IMG/VR virus record: IMGVR_UViG_3300047557_002814
Location: 1-26,103 of that record
Reading direction: 5' to 3' (one strand)
Source: a virus
DNA: 26,103 nucleotides
Position numbers and translations under genes: made by a program. Under the pieces are notes generated by a model. It saw nothing but the letters and a program-made list of their open reading frames with translations. It was not told the origin of the DNA and ran no database searches. This document shows, piece after piece, positions 3,751 to 15,901 of the stretch; position 1 is the stretch's first letter; each line of letters begins with the position of its first letter.

Positions 3751-5667
3751 TTACATACCTTGTGCCATTGACTTCATCGCTAACTCACCTGTTGTTCCTT
3801 GCGGTGCTTGCGGTTGACTTGGTGCAGAAGGTTGTTGTCCTTGCGTTTGTCCTTGGGTTTGTTCCTGCGTCATTTGTGCAACAAATTGACTAAGTAGTGC
3901 TTCGATTTGTTCTTGCGGCGCTCCGTTCATCATTAGTTCATGAGCGTACTGTGCCGCCTGTACAATTTGTGATTTTAAATCTGTTTGTTGTTGTTGCAAC
4001 ATTTTTTGTCTATCCTCTTCCATACGACGAAGAATATCTTCTTTCATATCAAAATCTTGGAATTGAATCCACTCTTCTGGTGTAATAATCGGTGGGTTAA
4101 ATTGGAACTGACCTTGCATTTGCATCAGTTGGTCGGCTTGTTGACGTTTGCTTGCTTGTGTAGTTGGTGCTTTTGCATATACATCAGAACGCACACGCCA
4201 TTCTAAATTATCTGCTGTCCAATCATCAAACGGTTCAAAATTAGCATATAACGGTTCTCCGTTTGGTGATTGAACGGATAGTGGTCGTTGGTCTTTCCAA
4301 TTATACAAAATAGTCAAAACAATTAAATGTGAAATGTTTTCAACAAATTCGTCAATTTGAATCATCTTGTCTTTATCACGAATTGTAGCACGTTCAATTA
4401 GTGAATTTACACCTGTTGATGTTGTTAGCGAGCCTACCGAATTACCTGTGTAGGCTTCATTGATTCCAACAATTTCTCGAATGTCGTTTTTTAACCTGTC
4501 TTCTAAATCAAACAAACCTCGTGGAATTTCTGGCGGTTGTAGTGTGTGAATTGAGTTTTGCGGGTCTGCATTTGTTGTCCACACTTTACCTGGCAACGTT
4601 CCTGTTTTTGCCAAGTCTGCGGCGTTAATACCGCTTTCTCTTGAAACAATCTTTTGTGGGTTTTGATGAAGCACACCAATAATTGAAGCAATTTGTGAGA
4701 TTTTATTAAGGATTTTTTGATTTTCAAAAATATCCATAATGGTGGATGTTCCCCACATGGTGTTTTCTTCATGCTCGTCTACACACAAAACAAACGGGTA
4801 AATGTTAGGTTTAATATCTTCTCTTTTCAAAAGAATAAAATCCATGTTTTTAATATAGTAGGTACAAGACAGTTTCCACTTTCCATCTTCACCATATTTA
4901 CGCTCCCAATGAGCGTGTAAAACAACCATTTCATCCCCTTGAATGTTCATTCCATTATTCAATGGATTTTCTTCACGGTCGTAAATTGTACCTGCTTCTT
5001 GGTCAGATGTACCTAAGTTTGATTCGTTTAGATTTTTTAGTTTCTTTCCGTTACCGTTTTCTTCGCAATACTTTTTAAACTCTGGGTTGTTTTTGATTTC
5101 AGCCAAAGTCATAATTTCTGTTACTTCAATAAACTTACACTTTTCAACACTATACGCGTCTGGGTCTGGGAAGAAGTTTGCGATTGGGATTGGTTTTACA
5201 CAAATCTTACCAGAATACAGTTGGTTTTCTGGACTGTATTCGTCACGGTAAACTCCACCTACATAACTATCGTCGTTGTAAACATACGCAATTCCCGTAC
5301 CTTGTAGCAAAGTACGGTCAAGAATACGTCTAATGGTTCGCTGGATGTTTTCGCTTTCCCAAACATGTTCGTAGGCTTGTTGCAGTCTTGCAACTTGTTC
5401 TGTGTATTGTGGGTTTACGGGCATAAACGTTGCTTTTCCGATTGCACTTGCTAAATTTGCACGTTTAATTGTACGAACGTAGCGAATGTAGTTTGTAACA
5501 GGTTTTGGAATCCACGGCGGAATACTTGCATTTTTCCACTGCTCGCCACGGTCAAACATATCTAATTCCGCCCACAAGCGTTGTTTATTTGCAACAGCGT
5601 CTTCGGCTTTGCGGTAACGTTGTGTGTACAACTTAATTAAATCAGCATCAGTTGTTTTCTTTGCCAT
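3751..5667 (-). CDS. Portal protein
   Basis: This 638-residue protein starts at ATG 5667-5665 behind GAGAGGGG. It forms the dodecameric ring through which DNA enters and leaves the head. Supporting phrases include LIKLYTQRYRKAEDAVANKQRLWAEL near the N-terminus, PWIPKPVTNYIRYVRTIKRANLASA (residues about 52-76), an aspartate-rich 'PDPDAY' loop at about 166-171, and GSLTTSTGVNSLIERATIRDKDKM at about 414-437. These fit the P22/T7-like long portal family. The C-terminal ~100 residues are Gln-rich and low in complexity, as in other large portals with barrel-like extensions. The start overlaps the upstream gene by 20 bases. Order terminase-portal-scaffold-capsid is standard. Confidence 0.85.
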   Translation of the reverse strand: MAKKTTDADLIKLYTQRYRKAEDAVANKQRLWAELDMFDRGEQWKNASIPPWIPKPVTNYIRYVRTIKRANLASAIGKATFMPVNPQYTEQVARLQQAYEHVWESENIQRTIRRILDRTLLQGTGIAYVYNDDSYVGGVYRDEYSPENQLYSGKICVKPIPIANFFPDPDAYSVEKCKFIEVTEIMTLAEIKNNPEFKKYCEENGNGKKLKNLNESNLGTSDQEAGTIYDREENPLNNGMNIQGDEMVVLHAHWERKYGEDGKWKLSCTYYIKNMDFILLKREDIKPNIYPFVLCVDEHEENTMWGTSTIMDIFENQKILNKISQIASIIGVLHQNPQKIVSRESGINAADLAKTGTLPGKVWTTNADPQNSIHTLQPPEIPRGLFDLEDRLKNDIREIVGINEAYTGNSVGSLTTSTGVNSLIERATIRDKDKMIQIDEFVENISHLIVLTILYNWKDQRPLSVQSPNGEPLYANFEPFDDWTADNLEWRVRSDVYAKAPTTQASKRQQADQLMQMQGQFQFNPPIITPEEWIQFQDFDMKEDILRRMEEDRQKMLQQQQTDLKSQIVQAAQYAHELMMNGAPQEQIEALLSQFVAQMTQEQTQGQTQGQQPSAPSQPQAPQGTTGELAMKSMAQGM

Positions 5668-5923
5668 TACGTTCGCCCCTCTCTAATACTTTCAAATATT
5701 CGTAAACTTCTTGTGACATGTGTTCTGGCACAGCACTATCTGGTAGCGGTTTTTCTTCCTGTTTAGCGATATAACGCACGTCGGCTAATGCAATAATGTA
5801 GTTTGGAAGAAAAACGTGCGTCAATCCACTTGAAATTGCTATTTTTGTTGCTTCGTACTCGTGTCTTTCTAACGAGAATGTAACGTAGTACCCATCTTTA
5901 AAGAAAAACGTATAGTTTGCCAT
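5648..5923 (-). CDS. Small protein between terminase and portal, unknown
   Basis: This 91-residue protein starts at ATG 5923-5921 behind AAAAAGGAG. The N-terminal half looks like beta strands (YTFFFKDGYYVTFSLERHEYEA) followed by FLPNYIIALADVRYIAKQEE. The C-terminal half is helical and charged. The pattern of a short anti-parallel sheet plus 'adVryI' resembles small host-binding or virion-associated proteins, but no family was recognised. It overlaps the portal start by 20 bases and follows the large terminase by 18 bases, so all are probably on one message. Confidence 0.65.
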   Translation of the reverse strand: MANYTFFFKDGYYVTFSLERHEYEATKIAISSGLTHVFLPNYIIALADVRYIAKQEEKPLPDSAVPEHMSQEVYEYLKVLERGERNGKENN

Positions 5924-5941
5924 GTTTTTGCTCCTTTTTTC

Positions 5942-7408
5942 TTAAACGTAGCTTAAATAATCTTTCTTTTCATCAAAATCGTCTTCTTCTTCATCTTCTA
6001 TCTTACTATTGTAACGTTTAGGCGGTTCTTTGGCAACGTTTTTTAACAATTCTGGGTCGTCTGGTAATCGCATCAAGGCGTAACGCAGTGCATCCATCAT
6101 ATGGTCGTTGCGTTTTAACGGTTTTTCGTCCAAGTTTTTCTCATTATCCATCGTCACTTCGGGAAACTTGTAGTTTAAACCTTCTTTAATTGTGTTAACA
6201 CATGTGTTAAACACTTTTAGTTTCCCTTGATTGATGTAACTATTCACTTTAAGTAGACCTGCTTCAATACTATTGTTGCCTTCGGTAAAGAAAAGTCCAT
6301 ACTCTTGGTAAAGAGACTGAACGGACTTTCCGTTTATTGGGTCGCTTTTATTTCTGGCTGATGGGTCAATGACCATAAACCGTAGTCTGCCGTGTGGAAT
6401 TTCTTCAACTTTTGGTTTAATGTATCTTACATGTTCGGGTACAGTGCGGTTCGGCTCGTAGTATTCATCGTAAATGTAGGTAATTCCTGTGTCTGGGTCG
6501 ATTGCACCGAATGGTACTGCTGTCGGGTTACGCAAACCGTGGTCTAATGCAACAAACCGTTCCCAATGCTTTGGCACATCAAACGGAGCAGTTATGGTGT
6601 CCGCAAAATTTGGGTACACCATTCCTTCCGAATGTTCAAACGAGCCTAAAAGGTAGCGCTTAATCCACCATTGTGGTTTACCTTTGGCGTTAATTTCAAT
6701 AAAGTCTGGCGGTAGGTATTGATTTAGTTTGGTTTCCCAAATAAACGTTGTAATGTGTGTGTTATAGTCTTCGTGTTCGGGGTGTAGTGGGTTTTTTCGT
6801 TTTTCATTATCTACAAACACTTCTTTAATCCAACCTAAATCAGGGTTGGAACAGACTGCAAACAACTTATTCTTAACGTAAGGGTCACGAATCCTTGTTA
6901 GTAATTGGTCGTAAATGGAACGTTTAATACCCGACGCTTCTTCCATATGCACTAACCCTGCGTTAATGGAGCGTAACTTTTCTTCATCGTCGGACGGAAT
7001 CGTGTAAAATACGAAACCGTTTTCTAATTCGATTTCACCGTCTGCTTTATTGTACCGTTTAATTAACGGTGGTGGGCATACTTCATTAAAAAACGTTTTG
7101 AGGGTAGTTCGCTTTAACTGTTGTAAGGTTGGTGCGGTTAAAAGTCCTGTGCCTTTTGGGTTTTCTAATGCTCGTAAAAATATTTCTTGCAAGGAAGTTT
7201 TTGATTTACCCGAACCGTAGCCACCGAAAAAACCGACGATTTGTAATGCGGTTTGGCTTGGTAGTTGGTGCGCTTTCAGTTGATACGACTGTGGTTCGTA
7301 GATTAGTTCAATCGCTTGACAGTTTGGGCAAATCAGATAGGCTGGGTGCTGGTCTATTGGCGTTATCGGTGTTGTTGTTTTGCAATTTTCGCAAAGCATC
7401 GGCTTCAC
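5942..7408 (-). CDS. terL: Terminase large subunit with N-terminal zinc ribbon
   Basis: This 488-residue DNA-packaging motor starts at ATG 7408-7406, with a GGGTGA site just upstream. Residues 1-35 carry CxxC pairs (Cys6, Cys9, Cys27, Cys30), a zinc ribbon not found in all terminases. Walker A is GGYGSGKS at 62-69. Walker B with the catalytic Glu is GLVHMEEAS at 151-159. The nuclease domain shows Asp289 (VALDHG), Asp348 (MVIDPSA) and NDHMMDALRYAL at 434-445, the RNase H-like metal ligands. The enzyme uses ATP to pump DNA into the prohead and cuts the concatemer. The first 101 bases of the gene are shared with the upstream small gene in another frame. The C-terminus is acidic (EDEEEDDFDEKKD). 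Confidence 0.93.
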   Translation of the reverse strand: MKPMLCENCKTTTPITPIDQHPAYLICPNCQAIELIYEPQSYQLKAHQLPSQTALQIVGFFGGYGSGKSKTSLQEIFLRALENPKGTGLLTAPTLQQLKRTTLKTFFNEVCPPPLIKRYNKADGEIELENGFVFYTIPSDDEEKLRSINAGLVHMEEASGIKRSIYDQLLTRIRDPYVKNKLFAVCSNPDLGWIKEVFVDNEKRKNPLHPEHEDYNTHITTFIWETKLNQYLPPDFIEINAKGKPQWWIKRYLLGSFEHSEGMVYPNFADTITAPFDVPKHWERFVALDHGLRNPTAVPFGAIDPDTGITYIYDEYYEPNRTVPEHVRYIKPKVEEIPHGRLRFMVIDPSARNKSDPINGKSVQSLYQEYGLFFTEGNNSIEAGLLKVNSYINQGKLKVFNTCVNTIKEGLNYKFPEVTMDNEKNLDEKPLKRNDHMMDALRYALMRLPDDPELLKNVAKEPPKRYNSKIEDEEEDDFDEKKDYLSYV

Positions 7409-7511
7409 CCACTTTCTTGCCTTGTGTGAAACCCATCTGAAAACCTTCGCTAAATGCTTGGGCGTTGGCGTGGCGTTGTTCTTCTTTTTGATTTTTAGTT
7501 CGTTTTTTCAT
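7308..7511 (-). CDS. Small basic protein overlapping terL, unknown
   Basis: This 67-residue protein starts at ATG 7511-7509 behind AAGGAG. A longer upstream extension has no ribosome binding site. The sequence is helical and basic at the start (KKRTKNQKEEQRHANAQAF), then GFQMGFTQGKKVGEADALRKL. The last 33 codons overlap the zinc-ribbon region of the large terminase in a different frame, and the first 17 bases overlap the small terminase gene. Both overlaps and the good ribosome binding site suggest it is translated. It may be a packaging accessory protein, but no family was recognised. Confidence 0.6.
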   Translation of the reverse strand: MKKRTKNQKEEQRHANAQAFSEGFQMGFTQGKKVGEADALRKLQNNNTDNANRPAPSLSDLPKLSSD

Positions 7512-7917
7512 TTTGTTTTTGCTCCTTATGATTATCACGGTCAATACGATGTAAAACAATGATTTTGTTAGTGTCGATGTTGTTTAAAATGCCTGATAGT
7601 TCGTTAATCTGTTTGGCGGCGTTTACATCGCCGTTAACAGCTTCGCGCTCTAATGCCTGAAATGCTTTGCGTTGAGCGATTTGTGCGTTAAACGCTTGTT
7701 GTGACTTAATAAACTGTCTGGTAGGTTCGAGATTTAGAAAGTCTTGCCACAAATGCTTGTTTCCGAGTTTTAAAACGTTTGTTAATTCGGTTGGTGTGAG
7801 GTGTAGTGTGTGTTCAGAGTGTTCCTCAAACACCGTTGCAAGTCTGATGGTGATTTCTTTTTGCTCTTCGGTTAGGTTTTGGTAAGATTTGGAAGATTTT
7901 ATCATATCTAACAACAT
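7495..7917 (-). CDS. Terminase small subunit-like protein
   Basis: This 140-residue protein starts at ATG 7917-7915 behind AAAGGGGG. A longer frame to 8100 is rejected because it runs through the promoter and has no ribosome binding site. It is helical throughout: an N-terminal segment TEEQKEITIRLATVFEEH, a central LTPTELTNVLKLGNKHLWQDFL that could be the DNA-binding helices, then FQALEREAVNGDVNAAKQINELSGIL. The last phrase and the following beta end (TNKIIVLHRI) are typical of small terminases that recognise the packaging site and stimulate TerL. Position as first gene of the packaging operon supports it. Confidence 0.7.
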   Translation of the reverse strand: MLLDMIKSSKSYQNLTEEQKEITIRLATVFEEHSEHTLHLTPTELTNVLKLGNKHLWQDFLNLEPTRQFIKSQQAFNAQIAQRKAFQALEREAVNGDVNAAKQINELSGILNNIDTNKIIVLHRIDRDNHKEQKQNEKTN

Positions 7918-7939
7918 TTTGGTTTCCCCCTTTGATAGT

Positions 7940-7968
7940 ATTGTACTACAAAAAAACCAATTTGGGAA
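7940..7968 (-). promoter_or_regulatory. Probable promoter of the packaging/structural operon
   Basis: On the minus strand, TTCCCA (7968-7963), a 17-base spacer and TACAAT (7945-7940) form a plausible sigma-A-type promoter starting about 15 bases before the ribosome binding site of the small terminase. The -35 box is weak (4 of 6). The -10 box is overlapped by the palindrome at 7941-7951. Confidence 0.5.
7941..7951. promoter_or_regulatory. Operator-like palindrome TTGTA-N-TACAA
   Basis: TTGTACTACAA is an odd palindrome with 5-base arms around one base. It overlaps the -10 box of the structural-operon promoter. The same arms recur at 11724-11734 as part of the GTA-N-TAC cluster, so one regulator could bind both places. 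Confidence 0.45.
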
Positions 7969-8164
7969 GGGATTGGGTGGGGGTTGCATGTGCGTTTTAT
8001 ATAATAAGGGTAAAGCCTTTATAAAGGGGGTTGTTTTTGAGCCTATCCCCGTCGAATAGTTACATATTGTCACTAAAATACTCTTTATGTGCTTATACAT
8101 AGCAAAAAAGACTCTTTTTTATATGAAAAAAAGCAAAAAAAACATTTTTTTTGTGTTTTTTTGC

Positions 8165-8193
8165 TTGACATACTCATATACACATGTTTTAAT
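8165..8193 (+). promoter_or_regulatory. Strong sigma-A promoter, rightward unit 1
   Basis: TTGACA (8165-8170), a 17-base spacer and TTTAAT (8188-8193) match the consensus at 11 of 12 positions. Long A and T tracts just upstream (8132-8165, forming AGC-A7 / T7-GCT arms) could act as an UP element. The transcript would start near 8200 with a small stem, GTGAG (8201-8205) with CTCAC (8212-8216). It drives the 381-residue gene. Confidence 0.8.
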
Positions 8194-8244
8194 GAATGTA
8201 GTGAGTGACGGCTCACAACAAAAAAACTGAAAGGATTTGATAGC

Positions 8245-9390
8245 ATGGTAAAAGTAGCAATGCAAGTTGTCGCTATGGTGTACGCGCTAGCAGTTGCATA
8301 CGTCAATGCACACCGCGCTGTCGTGCATGTGGACGATAGCACAACAGACTTCGGATTGTACGAGTTTCATGTACAATTCGAAGAAGCCGCAAGATTTTGC
8401 GACAAAAACGGCGTTTTTTCCCGTTTCAACGACGGGAGCGCAAGCGAAGACGAACGAAAATTAGTTCGTCTGCTGTACAAATGCAAGAGCAAAGCCGAAA
8501 AGATTCAGTCCAGAGCGTTGTATGAGATTGACGAATCCATACACCGCGCAAACTCTCTCAATGACGATGTTGCCTGGACGTACAAGCAAGCGAATGATGC
8601 GTTAGACGCATTGATTCGCTTTGAAGAAGACGGCGGCATGTTGATTGTACGCGACGCTGTGAGCCTTGAAACTTGGCAACTGATTAAAGATGTTGCTTAC
8701 GCGTTTTCAAACTCGGTGTTGTTCAATCAATTCTCGCTAGCTCGCACCAGATTTGAAGATTTAAAAGATTTGATTTACGTAGTCAACGGCGAAGCCGTAA
8801 CAACATTCGCAATCGCCGCCGTCAACGGCGACCCCGTGATGTTGGAATTGTTTGAGAAAATGGACGCTTTCAGAAGCGTCACACGCGACGACTACAAGCG
8901 ACTGTCGCGCAACATAGAACGACGCTCGACGACGACCAACAAAAAAGCCGTGCAGGATGCACGCACGGCAATCGTCCACCGCCTACCGACACGATTGAGT
9001 TTGTACACAAGCAACACGCCTGACGACAACGTCCCTGACGCGACGCGTTGGAAATTCACCGCAGACGCAAAAGGAAAGAAACCAGAGTTGGTTGCGAAAG
9101 TGAAGCGTGAACGCAAAAAAATTGTCCCGACTGTGTGGAGACACCACACAATACTCCCGCAATACCGAGACGAGTTGTTGAAACCGTGGCTCGACAAAAA
9201 TGAGCCGTCCGAGTTGCCCTTCGCGAACCAACCGCGAAGCATCGCAGTGAGCACAACACCGAAACTACCACCAACGCCACCGAAACCGCGACCAACGCTC
9301 GGCACAAAAGAATCACGAGAGTTGGCACAACGCCGATACACATACAGCCCAGAGTTGGCGGAAAACATAATCCACCACGGAGCGAGATAA
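8245..9390 (+). CDS. Early protein of 381 residues with hydrophobic N-terminus, unknown
   Basis: It starts at ATG 8245 behind AAAGGA nine bases upstream. Residues about 3-21 (VAMQVVAMVYALAVAYVNA) are hydrophobic and could be a signal peptide or membrane anchor, or a buried helix. Residues about 45-215 are rich in charged helices (EDERKLVRLLYKCKSKAEKIQSRAL; RFEDLKDLIYVV). Residues about 215-310 are basic. Residues about 330-360 are a Pro-rich linker (PKLPPTPPKPRPT), followed by a short charged tail. I do not recognise a family. Its own strong promoter and place next to the divergent control region suggest an early, host-directed role. Base composition is richer in G+C than the virion genes. 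Confidence 0.8.
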   Translation: MVKVAMQVVAMVYALAVAYVNAHRAVVHVDDSTTDFGLYEFHVQFEEAARFCDKNGVFSRFNDGSASEDERKLVRLLYKCKSKAEKIQSRALYEIDESIHRANSLNDDVAWTYKQANDALDALIRFEEDGGMLIVRDAVSLETWQLIKDVAYAFSNSVLFNQFSLARTRFEDLKDLIYVVNGEAVTTFAIAAVNGDPVMLELFEKMDAFRSVTRDDYKRLSRNIERRSTTTNKKAVQDARTAIVHRLPTRLSLYTSNTPDDNVPDATRWKFTADAKGKKPELVAKVKRERKKIVPTVWRHHTILPQYRDELLKPWLDKNEPSELPFANQPRSIAVSTTPKLPPTPPKPRPTLGTKESRELAQRRYTYSPELAENIIHHGAR

Positions 9391-9398
9391 AATAGAAC

Positions 9399-9419
9399 GG
9401 GGATGGTGACAGCATCCCC
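9399..9419 (+). other. GTGACAG-loop hairpin, copy 1
   Basis: GGGGATG (9399-9405) pairs with CATCCCC (9413-9419) around the loop GTGACAG. It sits between the stop of the 381-residue gene and the ribosome binding site of the 24-residue gene. Two other intergenic hairpins (10841-10863 and 11066-11090) have different stems but exactly the same loop and closing G-C pair. Only a short pyrimidine run follows, so it is not a clear terminator. Confidence 0.75.
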
Positions 9420-9448
9420 CTTCTTAAAAAAAAAGGAGAATGTCAAAA

Positions 9449-9523
9449 ATGAAAACTCTTTTTAGAATCGCAGTAACAATACTCGGCATCACGTTCGAGT
9501 ACAAAATCAGCCGTCGCAAATAA
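9449..9523 (+). CDS. 24-residue hydrophobic/basic microprotein
   Basis: It starts at ATG 9449 behind AAAAGGAG ten bases upstream. An in-frame ATG at 9440 is too close to that site. The peptide MKTLFRIAVTILGITFEYKI ends with SRRK. It has a hydrophobic stretch of about 15 residues and a basic tail, so it may lie in or on the membrane. It follows hairpin copy 1 and precedes a strong terminator. It is short, and translation is inferred only from the ribosome binding site and context. Confidence 0.5.
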   Translation: MKTLFRIAVTILGITFEYKISRRK

Positions 9524-9544
9524 TAACATCGAAATAAAAGCCGA

Positions 9545-9581
9545 AGAGTCAGAGCGCCGTCACGCTCTGGCTCTTTTTTTT
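9545..9581 (+). terminator. Intrinsic terminator of unit 1
   Basis: A 12-bp stem (9545-9556 with 9563-9574, one G-T pair) around a 6-base loop is followed by a run of eight T. It ends the transcript carrying the 381- and 24-residue genes. Confidence 0.9.
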
Positions 9582-9689
9582 ATTTTCAAATAAACTATTT
9601 TTTACAACAGTCTCGTGACGCTTTGCGTTCTCGCCTGTTCTAATAAATAGTTTTTTTAAAAATAAAAAAAAGCCTAGCTTTTTTCTATG

Positions 9690-9775
9690 TACCGGTTACG
9701 GTTTAACGGTTACTTTTTATTTTCACCACTTCAAAGACGTTAACGGTAGCCGTCAAAAACGGTAACGGTCACGGT
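9690..9775 (+). repeat. ACGGT repeat array A (iteron- or operator-like)
   Basis: Six ACGGT copies start at 9698, 9706, 9743, 9759, 9765 and 9771, plus the palindrome ACCGGT at 9691. The last three are spaced 6 bases apart. It includes TTATTTTCACCACT (9717-9730) and TAACGGTAGCCGTCA (9741-9755), both repeated exactly, in the same order and with nearly the same gap, in array B. The second contains the palindrome ACGG-TAG-CCGT. Confidence 0.8.
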
Positions 9776-9825
9776 TGCCGCGCTGCATTTTTTGTGACAG
9801 CGCGTCTATGTAAAGTAAATAAGTG

Positions 9826-9834
9826 TGTTATACT
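9826..9834 (+). promoter_or_regulatory. Extended -10 promoter, rightward unit 2
   Basis: TGTTATACT is an extended -10 element. No good -35 box lies 16-18 bases upstream, so it may rely on the TG extension or on an activator bound at the ACGGT array about 55 bases upstream. The predicted start is near 9841. Confidence 0.6.
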
Positions 9835-9840
9835 GTATAC

Positions 9841-9912
9841 ATGAAGGGGATACAAACAAAGCACATGCTAGTTAGCGCATTAAATAGTAAATGCTTTGTT
9901 TGTACTCTTCAT
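9841..9912 (+). other. Long 5'-leader hairpin
   Basis: ACAAACAAAGCA (9852-9863) pairs perfectly with TGCTTTGTTTGT (9892-9903), extended by the T9851-A9904 pair. An outer ATGAAG (9841-9846) pairs with CTTCAT (9907-9912) across a small internal loop. The hairpin begins at the predicted transcription start. It may stabilise the message or regulate the leader frame and the amidoligase gene. Confidence 0.7.
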
Positions 9913-9975
9913 AACGCTTCGAAAACGTCCTTGATGACGTTAAAGACACACTCAAAAAACGGGGGATTAACATGA
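9841..9975 (+). CDS. Possible leaderless 44-residue leader peptide
   Basis: An open frame begins with ATG at 9841, exactly where transcription is predicted to start, and ends in TGA at 9973-9975. That stop overlaps the amidoligase start as ATGA. The peptide begins MKGIQTKHMLVSALNSK. No upstream ribosome binding site can exist if the start is at 9841, so translation would be leaderless. The frame also contains the whole leader hairpin. It could couple translation into the amidoligase gene, or it could be chance. Confidence is low. Confidence 0.25.
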   Translation: MKGIQTKHMLVSALNSKCFVCTLHNASKTSLMTLKTHSKNGGLT

Positions 9976-10817
9976 AAATTCGCTATGCATATGACAATGC
10001 ACCTGTCAATTTTTGCGGGTTGGCAACCGAAAGCCGTTTGCGCGGCTTCATTGGAATCGAGTTGGAAATTGACGGGCGCTCGGTGCGCACGTTCGAAGAC
10101 GAAATCGAATTGCAGTGCGATTGCTGCGGCTCATGGTACACAGAAGAGTCGTACGTCGAAGCAGATTACACCCAGGAAAGAGTCGCCGATGTAGTGGCGA
10201 CAGCCTTCAATGACTTCGATGAAGAACAAGTGTTTTTTGCATATGACTGCTCCATTGGCGGTGTGGAGTGCAAATTCCAACCATCAACATACGAGCATCT
10301 TTTGTCGCTCAAACCGCAATTCGACGAAATGTTCGAAGAACTCCGATACATGGAGCTCAACGACCGCTTTGACAGTGACAACAATGCAGGAATGCATGTG
10401 CATTTATCAAACACCGTCTTTGCGGATGGTTATCACATGAAGAGATTCATACAATTCTTCCAAGTGAATTACAGAAAGTTGCTCCGATTCGCGCAACGTG
10501 AAGAAACCACGTTTTGCGAGTCAACGGGAGTTAATCCTGAGTTGCCACCGACAAAATTCAAGTCTCAATACCTGGCGAATGGGCGCAATCGCGTCAAAAT
10601 GCAAGTCGTGAACACGGCACATTCGAATACAGTCGAAGTGCGCGCGTTCGCAGCGCCCGACAACACACAGGCATTTTTTGCCTACGTCGAGTTGTGCGTG
10701 CTTGCCGTCGAGTTGACAGCCAGTCCCGAAAGCGACCCACGTCGCTTTACCTGGGAGACGCTCAAACAACTAGCGGAAAAACACAATCTTCTGCACTTGG
10801 TCGCTGAATTGTCATAA
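9972..10817 (+). CDS. Amidoligase-like protein 1 (glutamine synthetase fold)
   Basis: This 281-residue protein starts at ATG 9972 behind CGGGGGATT. It shows the motif series of the putative amidoligase family (Amidoligase_2 type, COOH-NH2 ligases of the glutamine synthetase superfamily): GIELEI at 28-33, VECKFQP at 98-104, AGMHVHLS at 139-146 and NTAHSNTVEVRAF at 214-226. The Glu, His and Arg residues in these motifs are those expected to bind metal-ATP and acyl phosphate. Cysteines at 49, 51 and 52 within an inserted loop (residues about 45-65) could bind metal. Such enzymes join a carboxylate to an amine using ATP; the substrate is unknown. It has its own promoter and leader and is followed by two microproteins. 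A larger paralogue lies at 11947-13566. Confidence 0.78.
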   Translation: MKIRYAYDNAPVNFCGLATESRLRGFIGIELEIDGRSVRTFEDEIELQCDCCGSWYTEESYVEADYTQERVADVVATAFNDFDEEQVFFAYDCSIGGVECKFQPSTYEHLLSLKPQFDEMFEELRYMELNDRFDSDNNAGMHVHLSNTVFADGYHMKRFIQFFQVNYRKLLRFAQREETTFCESTGVNPELPPTKFKSQYLANGRNRVKMQVVNTAHSNTVEVRAFAAPDNTQAFFAYVELCVLAVELTASPESDPRRFTWETLKQLAEKHNLLHLVAELS

Positions 10818-10840
10818 ACATACCTGATAGTGAGTAAAGT

Positions 10841-10863
10841 GGGGGGCGGTGACAGCGCCCCTT
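10841..10863 (+). other. GTGACAG-loop hairpin, copy 2
   Basis: GGGGCG (10843-10848) pairs with CGCCCC (10856-10861) around GTGACAG, with two further G-T pairs outward. It sits between amidoligase 1 and the 55-residue gene. The stem differs from copies 1 and 3 while pairing is kept. Confidence 0.75.
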
Positions 10864-10892
10864 CTATTATCTTCTAGAAGGGTGGTGAAGAC

Positions 10893-11060
10893 ATGAAGAA
10901 AAAGTTGCTAGAAATGAACATCGACGACAAACTCCACACAACACGTGGTTTTATCGTGCGATGCTCGCCAACACATTGGCGGGTAATTGTACTGAATCCA
11001 AAACCAAAGTGGGCACACACGTTCGTGCTGGTAAACGGAAAATTCGTAAAATTGCTCTAA
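10893..11060 (+). CDS. 55-residue basic microprotein
   Basis: It starts at ATG 10893 behind GAAGGGTGGTG. The sequence begins MKKKLLEMNIDDKLHTTRGF, then IVRCSPTHWRVIVLNPKPKW and a strand-like end (FVLVNGKFVKLL). It is basic and probably a small beta-rich fold, perhaps an SH3-like or RNA-binding barrel, but that is a guess from strand pattern only. It follows hairpin copy 2 and precedes copy 3. Confidence 0.65.
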   Translation: MKKKLLEMNIDDKLHTTRGFIVRCSPTHWRVIVLNPKPKWAHTFVLVNGKFVKLL

Positions 11061-11065
11061 TTCAG

Positions 11066-11090
11066 AAGAGGGTGGTGACAGCACCCTCTT
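11066..11090 (+). other. GTGACAG-loop hairpin, copy 3
   Basis: AAGAGGGTG (11066-11074) pairs with CACCCTCTT (11082-11090) around GTGACAG. It lies between the 55- and 38-residue genes. The base run after it is TATATTATTA, not a T tract. Confidence 0.75.
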
Positions 11091-11112
11091 TATATTATTA
11101 AGAGGTGATAAT

Positions 11113-11229
11113 ATGCTAATTGAAAGACTTCAAATGTTGCTGGTCGTAGTAATCTTCTTCGCCGTGCCGCTCGGCATCGTTTTTTTAAAGATATGGATTG
11201 AAGAAAACCCGTACAACGAAAAGAAATGA
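11113..11229 (+). CDS. 38-residue single-span membrane microprotein
   Basis: It starts at ATG 11113 behind AAGAGGTGATAAT. The sequence MLIERLQMLLVVVIFFAVPL continues GIVFLKIWIEENPYNEKK. Residues about 7-26 form one hydrophobic membrane span, with a charged C-terminal tail. It is the last gene before a strong terminator. Membrane microproteins of this size in phages are often linked to lysis timing or superinfection exclusion, but nothing here proves either. Confidence 0.65.
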   Translation: MLIERLQMLLVVVIFFAVPLGIVFLKIWIEENPYNEKK

Positions 11230-11234
11230 TTAAC

Positions 11235-11274
11235 AACCACTCATAGAGCGCCGGCTCTGTGAGTGGTTTTTTTT
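11235..11274 (+). terminator. Intrinsic terminator of unit 2
   Basis: A 15-bp stem (11235-11249 with 11254-11268, one G-T pair) has a 4-base loop GCCG and is followed by eight T. It closes the amidoligase 1 and microprotein transcript. Confidence 0.92.
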
Positions 11275-11310
11275 GTGTTTTTTTATTTATTTATATGTAT
11301 TTTTATCCTG

Positions 11311-11422
11311 TACCGGTAACGGTAACGGTTATCAAGTAACGGTTATTTTCACCACTGCAAAACACCCTAACGGTAGCCGTCACTTTCCGCCGCTACCTAA
11401 ACGGTGCATAATTTGTGACGGT
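11311..11422 (+). repeat. ACGGT repeat array B (duplicate of array A)
   Basis: Six ACGGT copies start at 11319, 11325, 11339, 11370, 11401 and 11418, plus ACCGGT at 11312. It shares with array A the 14-mer TTATTTTCACCACT (11343-11356) and the 15-mer TAACGGTAGCCGTCA (11368-11382). The distance from the 15-mer to the following -10 box is also similar (67 against 74 bases). Confidence 0.8.
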
Positions 11423-11445
11423 CAGGCTCGGTATTACAAAACCCG

Positions 11446-11454
11446 TGTTATAAT
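11446..11454 (+). promoter_or_regulatory. Extended -10 promoter
   Basis: TGTTATAAT is a perfect -10 with TG extension. The upstream -35 position is poor (GGCTCG-like). The surrounding sequence GTATTACAAA...GTGTTATAATAAT is nearly repeated at the 11860 promoter. Its transcript would begin near 11461 and run into the three-stem structure. Confidence 0.65.
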
Positions 11455-11551
11455 AATGGTGTAGGGGAAAGGGAAAGGGCAACAACGCCACGTAATACGC
11501 GAAAGATAATACAGTACAGTGTAATACGTGGAAGGGTAGTAAAAATGAATC

Positions 11552-11640
11552 ATAGTAAGATTTTTTTTATTAACATTATATGTATATTATATACATATAA
11601 TAACAACAATATCCACTATATGGATATTATATCTTACTAT
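11552..11640 (+). other. AT-rich three-stem (cloverleaf-like) inverted-repeat structure
   Basis: An outer 10-bp stem (11552-11561 with 11631-11640) encloses two perfect hairpins. One has a 12-bp stem (11575-11586 with 11590-11601) and a 3-base loop. The other has an 8-bp stem (11608-11615 with 11621-11628) and a 5-base loop. All stems are perfect. It lies downstream of the 11446 promoter, so it could be a structured RNA, or a cruciform in an origin of replication. No known RNA family was recognised. Confidence 0.6.
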
Positions 11641-11859
11641 AAGTCATTAAAAAGCAACTTTTAATTTTCACTACAATTCACTACACCGAAGGGAGCTGGT
11701 TTTCAAACTGTAACACGTACCTATTGTATTACAATAACACTATTCGCCGTCATTGTTTTTGCCCGTGTAATACGCTAAACATGCGTGTACACACACTTTT
11801 TGCACATGCTTTTCGCACGACGCTGTATTTGTAACACTGCAAACTTTTGTGCAATACAC

Positions 11860-11888
11860 TTGCACGTATTACAAACATGTGTTATAAT
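11860..11888 (+). promoter_or_regulatory. Promoter for amidoligase 2 and the replication operon
   Basis: TTGCAC (11860-11865), a 17-base spacer and TATAAT (11883-11888) with an upstream TG form a strong sigma-A promoter. The spacer contains the GTATTAC palindrome (11866-11872), so a bound regulator would block RNA polymerase. The start site is near 11895, about 50 bases before the gene. Confidence 0.8.
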
Positions 11889-11946
11889 AATAGTACAGAG
11901 AGAGCGAAAAGCCAAAAAAAAAACAAAACGAAAAGGGGAATGTTCT

Positions 11947-13566
11947 ATGAGTATTAACAACCAACAAACATGTATTGCCTGCAACGCCGTTTTAACAGAA
12001 GAGCAAGTCAACGCTTTGCCAAACGCAACACTACAAGGGGAAGACGCGCACGTATGCGACGATTGCACACCAGGTGATTACGACGTATGCGAACACGACA
12101 ACGTAACAGTCGCACACGTCGATGAGTTTTACGAAGTGTTCGCCGTGACGCAACGCTTTCCGTATTCCCGTTCATTCTTCGTGTGTGGGGACAATATTCT
12201 CAACTACACACATACAATTGCTGGCGAATATTGGCGAGACGAAGATTGCCTTGAATTAGCGTATGGGGGTTATATTGACCGCAACACGTACGAAAACGGG
12301 AATTACGCGACTTGCGCTCACACGGGCGACTTGTACCATACGGACGAGTTGTACTATTGTGAGTGGGATGAAGAATATTACTCTTCGACAAGTTATTTCC
12401 CTGAAAATCCTGACGACGACGACGATTATTATAACCCACACCTTATCAACGAACATAACTACCGACCGCACGCTTTCTTTCATACAACGCCGTCAGAATC
12501 CGAAAACGACACCGTTGGACTTGAAATAGAGATGGACGGCAAGTCGTCGTACGTCGTTGAGTCCGAGAGACACGCCGTTGCCAAATATTGGCTAGATACG
12601 CTCGGTACGTTGGTGTATCACAAAAAGGACGGTTCGCTAACACGTGGGGGTTTTGAAGCCGTGACACATCCCGTCACATACGGCTACTTGAAAGAAAACC
12701 GCGACAAACTAAAAGCGTGCCTAGACTTTGCAATGCAGAACGGCTACCGTGCGCATGATACAGACACTTGCGGACTTCACGTGCATATTAGTCGTAAATC
12801 GTTCAAGTCGCAAAAAGCGCAGGATAACTTTATCTTCCTGTTTGAACGCTTCTACAATCAAGTGTTAAAGTTTTCACGCCGTACAGAATATTCTATGCAA
12901 CGTTGGGCAGAACGATACGGGATTTACTCGGCACGCGACAACAACGAAGATTTTTCCAACAAACTTCGCAACGCACACCGCGACAAATACCGTATTGTCA
13001 ACACGCTCCATTCGGCAACGCTTGAAGTACGTGCTTTCAAAGGTACGCTTAACATTGACACGTTGTTTGCGACCGTGCAATTCATGTTAGTTATGCGCGA
13101 CCTTGCTAACCAAAACAACAACGTCGTCAATAACTTAACGTGGCAATCCGTTGTCAAACTTGCCAAAGTCAAAGGGTACGCCGAGTTAGTAGGGTACTTA
13201 GAAAAGCGCGAGTTGTTGAATGAACGTACGCAACGTGTACCGTATAAAGAGCGACGTGTCGTAGAACGCGCCGTATCATTAGGCGACAAGTTGTATGTTG
13301 TCAGTAACTCACCTGGTTGCCGTCACTACTTCCGAAGCACGCCTATGCTCGTCAAAGTCCTTGACTTATTGCAATATGAAAATCGGTTCGTTGTTGAACC
13401 CGTTGACGCGCAGGATAGAGACGACCTAATTGTAGAGACGCAAGGGCGATGGTCGCAATACGTACTTTACAATGACCTTGCCTTCGTTGACGACTTTGAA
13501 GGCAACCAAAACGGACAAATTGACCTAGTTACACGATTGTCCGACTATGCAATTCAAGTTAACTAA
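11947..13566 (+). CDS. Amidoligase-like protein 2 with N-terminal Cys-rich region
   Basis: This 539-residue protein starts at ATG 11947 behind AAAAGGGGAA. A longer frame from 11785 is rejected because it begins upstream of the promoter. Residues 9-48 hold Cys9, Cys12, Cys37, Cys40 and Cys48, a likely zinc finger. A second Cys/His-rich stretch lies at about 80-140. Residues about 155-161 are an Asp run. The ligase core shows VGLEIEM at 190-196, GFEAVTHP at 235-242, CGLHVHIS at 275-282 and NTLHSATLEVRAF at 352-364, the same series as the protein at 9972-10817. The C-terminal 130 residues are a further domain of unknown type. It is followed 40 bases later by a glutamine amidotransferase, which could supply ammonia. 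The substrate is unknown. Confidence 0.8.
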   Translation: MSINNQQTCIACNAVLTEEQVNALPNATLQGEDAHVCDDCTPGDYDVCEHDNVTVAHVDEFYEVFAVTQRFPYSRSFFVCGDNILNYTHTIAGEYWRDEDCLELAYGGYIDRNTYENGNYATCAHTGDLYHTDELYYCEWDEEYYSSTSYFPENPDDDDDYYNPHLINEHNYRPHAFFHTTPSESENDTVGLEIEMDGKSSYVVESERHAVAKYWLDTLGTLVYHKKDGSLTRGGFEAVTHPVTYGYLKENRDKLKACLDFAMQNGYRAHDTDTCGLHVHISRKSFKSQKAQDNFIFLFERFYNQVLKFSRRTEYSMQRWAERYGIYSARDNNEDFSNKLRNAHRDKYRIVNTLHSATLEVRAFKGTLNIDTLFATVQFMLVMRDLANQNNNVVNNLTWQSVVKLAKVKGYAELVGYLEKRELLNERTQRVPYKERRVVERAVSLGDKLYVVSNSPGCRHYFRSTPMLVKVLDLLQYENRFVVEPVDAQDRDDLIVETQGRWSQYVLYNDLAFVDDFEGNQNGQIDLVTRLSDYAIQVN

Positions 13567-13584
13567 AACTAAAACTAAAACTAA
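13561..13584 (+). repeat. Short tandem repeat (AACTAA)4
   Basis: Four direct copies of AACTAA overlap the stop of amidoligase 2 and precede the amidotransferase ribosome binding site. It offers repeated in-frame TAA stops and could vary in copy number. Confidence 0.7.
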
Positions 13585-13606
13585 ATATGAGAAGGGGTTT
13601 TGCCTT

Positions 13607-14683
13607 ATGTGTGGACTTTATGGATTTATTAACAGGGGAGACAAAAAAATCAATAGCAACGGACTTGTTAAAGCAATGTCAGTTGCGGCTATGACCCGTG
13701 GCACACACGCCACGGGCGTAGCCTACAACGTCGGTAAAAAACTGATTGTGCTTAAAGCGCCTGTATCGGCGGACAAATTTGTACTAGACTTGCCCAAAAA
13801 CGTGTCGGCGGTCATTGGACACACACGACACACGACGCAAGGTACGCAATTTAAAAATCACAACAACCATCCGTTTTTAGGTGTCGCAGGGGACACGCAA
13901 TTTGCCCTAGCGCACAACGGCGTACTTGACAACGACGATATTCTGCAATACACCGAAAAACTTCCAAAAACCGAGATTGAGACGGACACATACGTTGCCG
14001 TTCAGTTAATGGAAAAATACGCAAACAACGAACCGCTTGACATTGGCGCAATTCGCAACGCTTCCGAGTTAGTATCGGGTATGTTTGCCTTCACTGTGTT
14101 AGATAATAACAACAACTTTTGGATTATCCGCAACGACAGTCCGCTTTACCTTGTGTACTTTGACAAACTGAACCTGTACGTATACGGCTCGACGAAAGAG
14201 ATTGTTGAAGCAGGGTTAAAAGCGGCAGGTTTAGCAACGTACACCGTTGTCAGTGTTGGTGTCGGTGAGATTATCCGTATCGACGAAAACGGCGTGTTAC
14301 ACCGCTTTAACTTTGAAGTTAACGAACGCTACTATAACCCTAGTAGTAAATGGTATTCGATAGCGAATGGTAACAAAACCGCAACGACAACGACAACAAC
14401 GTACTACAACGACGGGTGGGGCGCAGGTTGGCAGGAAGACTATTACGACCAACTATTACGCCACGACTTGTTTGACTACGGATTCGAGGATGAAGAAGTA
14501 GACCTTCTCTTTGACACATACGGCACACGTTATGTTGAAGAGACGTTGTACGGCACGGACGGTGAGAATCAAGTCAGAGACTTACTGTACGAAGCCTTAC
14601 GGACTTTTTTCATCAACACATACGAAAGGGGGTATGCGAAAAAAGACAATGTAGTACCGTACGTAAGCCCGATTTACAAGTAA
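13607..14683 (+). CDS. Class II glutamine amidotransferase (Ntn hydrolase)
   Basis: This 358-residue protein starts at ATG 13607 behind AAGGGG. This start places Cys directly after Met (MCGLYGF), as required for the N-terminal nucleophile; a longer frame from 13547 would destroy it. Family motifs are RGTHATG at 31-37, GHTRHTTQG at 71-79, NHPF at 87-90, AHNG at 102-105 and ETDTY at 125-129, as in GlmS and PurF glutaminase domains. It releases ammonia from glutamine. There is no GlmS or PurF synthase domain. The C-terminal ~90 residues (Thr-rich linker, then acidic helices) are unrelated. With two amidoligase-like proteins nearby, it probably feeds ammonia or acts as an amidase on their product. 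Confidence 0.88.
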   Translation: MCGLYGFINRGDKKINSNGLVKAMSVAAMTRGTHATGVAYNVGKKLIVLKAPVSADKFVLDLPKNVSAVIGHTRHTTQGTQFKNHNNHPFLGVAGDTQFALAHNGVLDNDDILQYTEKLPKTEIETDTYVAVQLMEKYANNEPLDIGAIRNASELVSGMFAFTVLDNNNNFWIIRNDSPLYLVYFDKLNLYVYGSTKEIVEAGLKAAGLATYTVVSVGVGEIIRIDENGVLHRFNFEVNERYYNPSSKWYSIANGNKTATTTTTTYYNDGWGAGWQEDYYDQLLRHDLFDYGFEDEEVDLLFDTYGTRYVEETLYGTDGENQVRDLLYEALRTFFINTYERGYAKKDNVVPYVSPIYK

Positions 14684-15439: not shown

Positions 15440-15901
15440 ATGGAAGCGTTAGGTATACAATGTAATGCGTGTGGGGTGAAGCGTAGGCACAAAAATCTAC
15501 GCTATCATCCCGAAACATTTTTTGCATATTGCGAAAACCCGTACACGTGCAACGACGAAAATCCGAACAGCCCTTCTAACGTTATCAAGCGAAAAGGTAA
15601 GATAGATATGTTGACGCATGAAGAAGCCGAGTTTGCTAATGCGGCTAATATAAAATCGACGAAAAGCGACCGTATTAAACGGCTATTAAACAGTCCTTTA
15701 ACCGTCCGTATTCAATCGGTCGATATGGCGGAGTTTCTTGTGACGCACGCCGAAAATACCGACTTAACCGTGTCGCAACTAATTCGTAAATTAGTTGAAG
15801 CAACTATGAGCGAAGAGTCGCAACAACAACCAGAGACGCAACCGCAAAAAACACCCGAACCAACAGTACAAACACTTAATGACGACGATTTGATTTTTTA
15901 G
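15440..15901 (+). CDS. Zinc-finger and RHH-like protein with SSB-type acidic tail
   Basis: This 153-residue protein starts at ATG 15440 behind AAAGGGGAA. Cys8, Cys11, Cys31 and Cys37 form a probable zinc-binding module. Residues about 80-120 (LTVRIQSVDMAEFLVTHAE, then LTVSQLIRKLVEAT) have the strand-helix-helix spacing of a ribbon-helix-helix DNA-binding domain. A Gln/Pro/Thr-rich linker follows, and the last residues are NDDDLIF, close to the acidic DDDxPF tail by which bacterial SSB recruits partners. It may be a DNA-binding regulator or a replication accessory protein. All three assignments are by eye. Confidence 0.7.
   Translation: MEALGIQCNACGVKRRHKNLRYHPETFFAYCENPYTCNDENPNSPSNVIKRKGKIDMLTHEEAEFANAANIKSTKSDRIKRLLNSPLTVRIQSVDMAEFLVTHAENTDLTVSQLIRKLVEATMSEESQQQPETQPQKTPEPTVQTLNDDDLIF

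Follow-up and report, generated by a model that had tools for sequence, protein, structure and literature searches.

What might a phage do with two amidoligase-like proteins and a stand-alone glutaminase encoded in the same part of its genome? The locus that raises this question lies in a linear IMG/VR virus record, the whole 26,103 bases of which constitute the window analysed here and which may be a fragment. The late genes, for capsid, portal and terminase, are found on the minus strand as far as about 8.1 kb; on the plus strand, an early block precedes a replication set made up of an SNF2 helicase, a PD-(D/E)XK exonuclease, a Sak4-like annealing protein, a primase/helicase and a single-strand binding protein of the DUF669 type. 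The three genes of interest, amlA (9972–10817), amlB (11947–13566) and the gene for a class II glutamine amidotransferase (GATase, 13607–14683), all on the plus strand, sit in the early block, ahead of the replication genes.

AmlA, a short form of 281 residues, contains GIELEI, GMHVHLS and TVEVRAF, and AmlB, 539 residues long when counted from the ATG at 11947 in a frame that opens at 11785, contains GLEIEM, GLHVHIS and TLEVRAF; the glutamine synthetase (GS) superfamily motifs GIELEI/GLEIEM, HVHxS and TxEVRAF that a sequence-only reading had reported in both proteins are thus confirmed in the open reading frames. That reading had also looked to a match with PF12224 (Amidoligase_2). In HMM searches this family scored 14.4 bits with AmlA (E 0.036, weak support) and 19 bits with AmlB (E 1.3e-3, moderate support), both below the curated cut-off of 22 bits, so that the two proteins are filed as related to the family and not as formal members; four homologues pass the cut-off (L004 with 45, L041 with 38, L094 with 34 and L006 with 30 bits). 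PHROG 16683 lent weak support for AmlA (E 2e-7) and matched AmlB with an E-value of 7e-41, and AmlB also matched PHROG 2443 'amidoligase' (5e-10) and PHROG 7469 'amidoligase enzyme', at about 1e-9 to 1e-10. Since the HMM evidence was thin for AmlA and moderate for AmlB, relatives were collected and both proteins were modelled.

The AlphaFold model of AmlA has a pLDDT of 84.6 and a pTM of 0.86, and in that of AmlB the core (residues 165–425) has a pLDDT mostly above 80, a large part of it at 90–98. Foldseek aligned the AmlA model with GS chains (E 2e-6), and structural comparison gave Z-scores of 11–12 with YbdK, plant glutamate-cysteine ligase (GCL) and GS, the VIA value for YbdK being 12.3. 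The significant fold matches of AmlB were YbdK (Foldseek E 6e-5 to 8e-5, VIA Z 12.6), GS, GmaS and Dop, PafA being a weaker match; PafA and Dop were among the PDB matches in the fold searches with AmlA and AmlB. A search of the PDB by sequence with the amidoligase profile returned no GS match, and it was the fold search that revealed the kinship. When 43 sequences headed by AmlA, and including AmlB, are aligned, the invariant columns, in AmlA numbering, are G28, E30, E32, D92, S94, G97, E99, P104, G140, H142, H144, N214, T220, E222 and R224, among which are the GS-type GxExE (E30/E32), HxH (H142xH144) and TxExR (T220, E222, R224) elements; every one is kept in AmlB as well, and the loss of catalytic residues that would have spoken against the assignment is not observed. 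Both proteins thus have the GS fold and keep the GxExE, HxH and TxExR elements of the amidoligase superfamily intact. The expected relationship to amidoligases stands at the level of the fold, where the searches place both proteins, and falls short at the PF12224 cut-off.

The third gene encodes a stand-alone class II glutamine amidotransferase of the Ntn glutaminase type. Its frame opens at 13547 (13547–14683), and translation likely starts at the ATG of MCG at 13607, because AAGGGG lies just upstream and the protein of a sister phage (L175) begins with MCGLYGF, as does this one from that position. The glutaminase had been recognised beforehand by a Cys at residue 2, GHTRHTTQG and AHNG; these motifs are present and the class II catalytic set is complete (C2, R74, N104, G105, D127), with the qualification that the Cys is residue 2 only when counted from 13607. 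PF13522 was matched with 43.8 bits, above its cut-off of 27. A search of the protein for a SIS or PRTase synthase domain found none, and the resemblance to GlmS and PurF covers the glutaminase part only: the NCBIfam GlmS models scored 63–71 bits (cut-offs 381–418) and the purF model 40 (cut-off 350). With both cut-offs missed and no synthase domain, the GATase is, by its sequence, not a GlmS or PurF enzyme.

The proximity of the amidoligase and GATase genes is not peculiar to this phage. A DNA-level search of a phage collection with the whole stretch gave no match, and a scan of viral contigs with AmlB as a single sequence retrieved no relatives, whereas an alignment query did. An AmlB-based profile led to 80 viral loci, of which 71 have a GATase in the fetched DNA and 67 have it directly adjoining the amidoligase, on its downstream side, with a median gap of 7 bp; the same arrangement occurs in 74 of 80 bacterial loci. 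Removal of near-duplicates left 75 amidoligases; a GATase follows within 3.5 kb in 67 of them and, in 58, at no more than 250 bp. By comparison, loci sampled by their terminase contained a GATase in only 1 of 37 cases, and there it lay beside an amidoligase. Since 67/80 viral and 74/80 bacterial loci contrast with this base rate of 1/37, the gene order represents a conserved unit, and the co-occurrence in other genomes by which the initial proposal was to be judged is borne out. The triple of two amidoligases and one GATase is likewise not unique, since two amidoligases precede a single GATase in three viral loci (L029, L041, L045) and flank it on either side in two others (L013, L024); a fourth candidate for the former arrangement, L087, was set aside as its two pieces look like one broken gene. 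The suggestion that the system was undescribed cannot be upheld, as the pair, including its two-amidoligase form, has been published for phiEco32, LUZ24, RIO-1/PSA-HP1, OM43 phages and Marvin, and is predicted to be a wall-modification or superinfection-exclusion cassette (PMC5498523, PMC3890496, PMC10580990).

The reading that in our view best accounts for these data, to which we assign a probability of roughly 55% as a whole, is that the GATase would hydrolyse glutamine and pass the ammonia to AmlB, which would activate a carboxylate with ATP in the manner of glutamine synthetase and turn it into an amide; that AmlA, as a diverged copy of AmlB with its active site kept, would probably act as a second ligase for another substrate or partner; and that the modification would be made early in infection, because the genes lie on the early strand ahead of the replication genes, with a host carboxylate as the most likely target. 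The class of enzyme, a glutamine-dependent amidating pair of AmlB and GATase, appears quite probable, the reaction class following from family membership. Its logic would resemble that of MurT/GatD and AsnB/LtsA, peptidoglycan amidation enzymes composed of a split or fused glutaminase and an amidating synthetase, although their synthetase folds are unrelated to those considered here and the comparison is an analogy only. The hand-over of ammonia is suggested by gene order: fused amidoligase-GATase frames were sought among the loci as proof of channelling, and as none was found, gene order is what channelling rests on. Furthermore, the amidoligase may be able to work without the GATase, since 9 of the 80 viral loci have no GATase in the fetched DNA. 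A separate observation concerns the Clostridioides phage AR1086-1 (L004), in which an amidoligase at 7959–10148 has no GATase nearby and adjoins an RlaP RNA-repair polymerase, with KptA near, an example of this ligase family with another partner. As to the target, our best guess is a peptidoglycan stem-peptide precursor, which is tentative and fits the host spread of the pair as well as the published proposal; such a modification could make the cell less usable for competing phages.

The relationship between the two amidoligases bears on the role of AmlA. In the phylogenetic tree, AmlA and its orthologue join the AmlB of the same phage with support of 99/94, in agreement with the earlier description of the two proteins as paralogues, and the branch between them is very long, 2.9 changes per column, so that the placement must be taken with caution. 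With this reservation, AmlA is by sequence a lineage-specific duplicate of AmlB that has diverged far and retained its active site. The orthologue comes from a sister contig (L174, the same as L093) whose terminase is 99.6% identical in protein and whose DNA is 92% identical over 3889 to 9998; the identity breaks off sharply at 9998, after the first 27 bases of amlA, and returns near 11,069. The two AmlA proteins are only 50% identical, and an attempt to detect diversifying selection from dN/dS met with saturated dS. It appears that the amlA allele has been exchanged by recombination between otherwise close phages; allele exchange is common in host-facing genes. Between amlA and amlB lies a 55-residue open reading frame (10893–11060, plus strand) with 46% identity to its counterpart in the sister contig. 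A more distant sister phage (L175, terminase 84%) encodes AmlB (39–42% identity to that of this phage) and GATase (52–53%) without AmlA, and because it manages with one amidoligase and GATase, AmlA is best seen as an optional addition. In yet another relative (L185), the flanking genes are kept and the whole cassette is absent in the fetched stretch, so the cassette is, on comparative sequence grounds, optional cargo at this site; by eye, the corresponding region (2.7–9.0 kb of that contig) holds other accessory genes, including one for a RadC-like protein. A different view, in which AmlA is a duplicate that decays as constraint relaxes and has a regulatory or non-catalytic role beside AmlB, could draw on the long branch and on single-amidoligase relatives such as L175; it is nonetheless quite unlikely, since neither AmlA nor the orthologue, 50% identical to it, has lost any conserved motif residue.

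A challenge to a wall precursor as the target comes from the N-terminal regions of the relatives. At least two CxxC/H pairs, and up to 14, precede the catalytic core in 46 of 55 non-redundant phage amidoligases, and a Cys-pair array is likewise present in 78 of 80 bacterial loci, with a repeating unit of CxxC-G-x(about 17)-CxxC. AmlB retains a remnant, CIAC and CDDC together with degenerate units, its L175 counterpart keeps more, and AmlA has none. Such arrays stand on GS-fold amidoligases in L014, L024, L073 and others, and no further Pfam domain was reported for those of L006 and L007. A dependence of the array on the GATase was considered and dropped as weak (Fisher p 0.02, with few array-less cases and phylogeny uncorrected). 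The pairs may bind zinc in the manner of zinc fingers and dock a target macromolecule, and this would suit a protein or nucleic-acid target equally well as a wall precursor, which counts against our preferred explanation. A protein-modifying system, in which the array docks a host or phage protein and a carboxylate on one of its side chains or at its C-terminus is amidated or ligated, as with PafA/Dop or other GS-type ligases whose substrates are proteins, would agree with the prevalence of the Cys pairs, with the presence of PafA and Dop among the fold matches, and with the sharp exchange of AmlA between near-identical phages, as expected of a host-facing protein. At the same time, the array is only a remnant in AmlB and missing from AmlA, GS and YbdK match as well as or better than PafA/Dop, and Cys-pair arrays can also be structural; we therefore regard a protein target as somewhat unlikely.

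Most of the bacterial copies belong to Clostridia, among them Ruminococcus, Pseudoflavonifractor and Butyricicoccus. Because their neighbours are serine recombinases, integrases and MobA/VirD2 relaxases, along with DUF960 and DUF3846 proteins, the pair moves on mobile elements; L103, L119, L139, L163 and similar loci in Ruminococcus and relatives have it beside a relaxase, serine recombinase, integrase or DUF960 protein. A defence-island setting was also considered for them and rejected, the PADLOC matches being scattered methyltransferases and DUF1848 with no consistent system, and PADLOC models gave no match to the three phage proteins and the relatives tested. A bolder possibility, which we put forward as speculation and would not bet on, is a mobile glutamine-dependent amidation system of phages and of mobilizable elements in gut Clostridia, in which the GS-fold ligase docks on a protein or nucleic acid by means of a zinc-finger-like array and exchanged or duplicated ligases such as AmlA reach new targets; if true, it would serve mobile elements in conflict with one another as a weapon or shield that tags macromolecules.

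A further possibility is that the genes serve to make a small amide metabolite or peptide, or to modify a phage DNA base. YbdK, GmaS and GCL, all fold matches, are GS-fold amidoligases with small-molecule substrates, and class II GATase domains are generally known to supply ammonia to some base-modification pathways. Relatives with arrays suit a small-molecule role poorly, however, and the scanned frames of this record, of only 26 kb and possibly partial, contain no hypermodification or 7-deazaguanine genes; we consider both variants distinctly improbable.

The duplicated control sequence noted in the sequence-only reading is real. Its copies, at 9679–9755 and 11300–11382 on the plus strand, contain GTAACGGTTA-like repeats, are 75% identical over 68 bp (E 4e-7), and each lies downstream of a terminator-like hairpin (9543–9576 and 11235–11268, plus strand). 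TGTTATA(A/C)T boxes occur downstream of both copies. A ribbon-helix-helix-like protein is weakly predicted at 15440–15901 (PF07878, E 0.044) and could, on this prediction, bind the duplicated segment. A hairpin recurs directly past gene ends at 9400–9418, 10843–10861 and 11069–11087 (plus strand), with a 6-bp stem and an invariant 7-nt loop, GTGACAG; GGTGACAGC occurs three times, against 0.1 expected. The stems vary by compensatory changes (GGGATG/CATCCC, GGGGCG/CGCCCC, AGGGTG/CACCCT, and GGGCTG/CAGCCC in the sister phage), and L174 has the hairpin on its minus strand near 1950, 501 and 260. It looks like an RNA element; an Rfam scan of all 26,103 bases gave no match. Across viral contigs the hairpin pattern yielded more than 119 scattered matches, mostly one per contig, which with 15 fixed bases are largely due to chance.

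How, then, does the amidation system proposed here compare with those already described? PSA-HP1 and RIO-1-like podoviruses carry a cassette of seven genes, among them those for two amidoligases, one of which is a gamma-glutamyl amidoligase, for an ATP-grasp enzyme, for a glutamine amidotransferase and for GGCT; the cassette is conserved in phiEco32, 7-11, PA11, tf, MR299-2, LUZ24 and PaP3 and hypothesised to alter peptidoglycan and block superinfection (PMC5498523); the predicted peptidoglycan modification genes of PSA-HP1 are expressed immediately on infection (PMC7082346). The LUZ24-like phage UFV-P2 has PF12224, COOH-NH2_lig, GATase, ATP-grasp and GGCT genes near each other (PMC3890496), and the OM43 phages MEP401/402 have PF12224 and PF13522 (PMC10580990). 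The combination of amidoligase and GATase with a predicted function goes back to Iyer 2009, as cited in PMC10580990; that paper, Mageeney 2012 and Hardies 2013 are cited here via later ones. We found no functional or biochemical test of any phage member in the literature, and the target of the pair has been guessed at for more than 15 years. As in the RIO-1/PSA-HP1/phiEco32/LUZ24/PaP3/tf cassette, an amidoligase and a class II GATase lie near each other in the early region of the present phage, which like PSA-HP1 has two amidoligases, the second being here a paralogue of the first. Two components of the classic cassette were not detected, which weighs against our preferred explanation: GGCT (PF06094) had no match in the record, possibly a fragment, with a positive control that matched 9 of 14 genomes, and ATP-grasp had none among the scanned frames of this possibly partial record. 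COOH-NH2_lig (PF14395) was not matched in the record either, nor in its positive control.

Closer in gene order are Marvin gp105-gp106, from a Mycobacterium phage, and the podovirus ctgrD200, in which a GATase directly follows an amidoligase with N-terminal Cys pairs; they differ in having one amidoligase only, 25–26% identical to AmlB. The mobile elements of Ruminococcus/Oscillospiraceae and the fecal contig MT839723, whose GATase comes nearest to the present one within the phage collection (43%), share the gene order, and their amidoligases are about 31–37% identical, with full Cys-pair arrays unlike those here; the bacterial copies differ also in adjoining a resolvase, relaxase and DUF960. 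YbdK, GCL, GS, GmaS and PafA-Dop have the fold and the metal/ATP-site motifs in common with the phage proteins, at only about 8–14% identity, so their substrates are not transferable. The pair described here is therefore a known type of cassette in a compact, duplicated form, one that recurs in phages infecting Gram-positive as well as Gram-negative bacteria and, in gut Clostridia, on mobilizable elements. What it adds is a second ligase that is a diverged paralogue of the first and whose allele is replaced in a near-identical sister phage, Cys-pair arrays in most relatives that suggest macromolecule docking, the occurrence of the pair on mobilizable elements of Ruminococcus and relatives, and, unlike the classic cassette, no GGCT gene. 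Since a sister phage has the one-amidoligase version, the core comprises two genes and is small enough for direct expression and assay, and what is recognised can be approached through the swapped AmlA allele and through the Cys-pair arrays.
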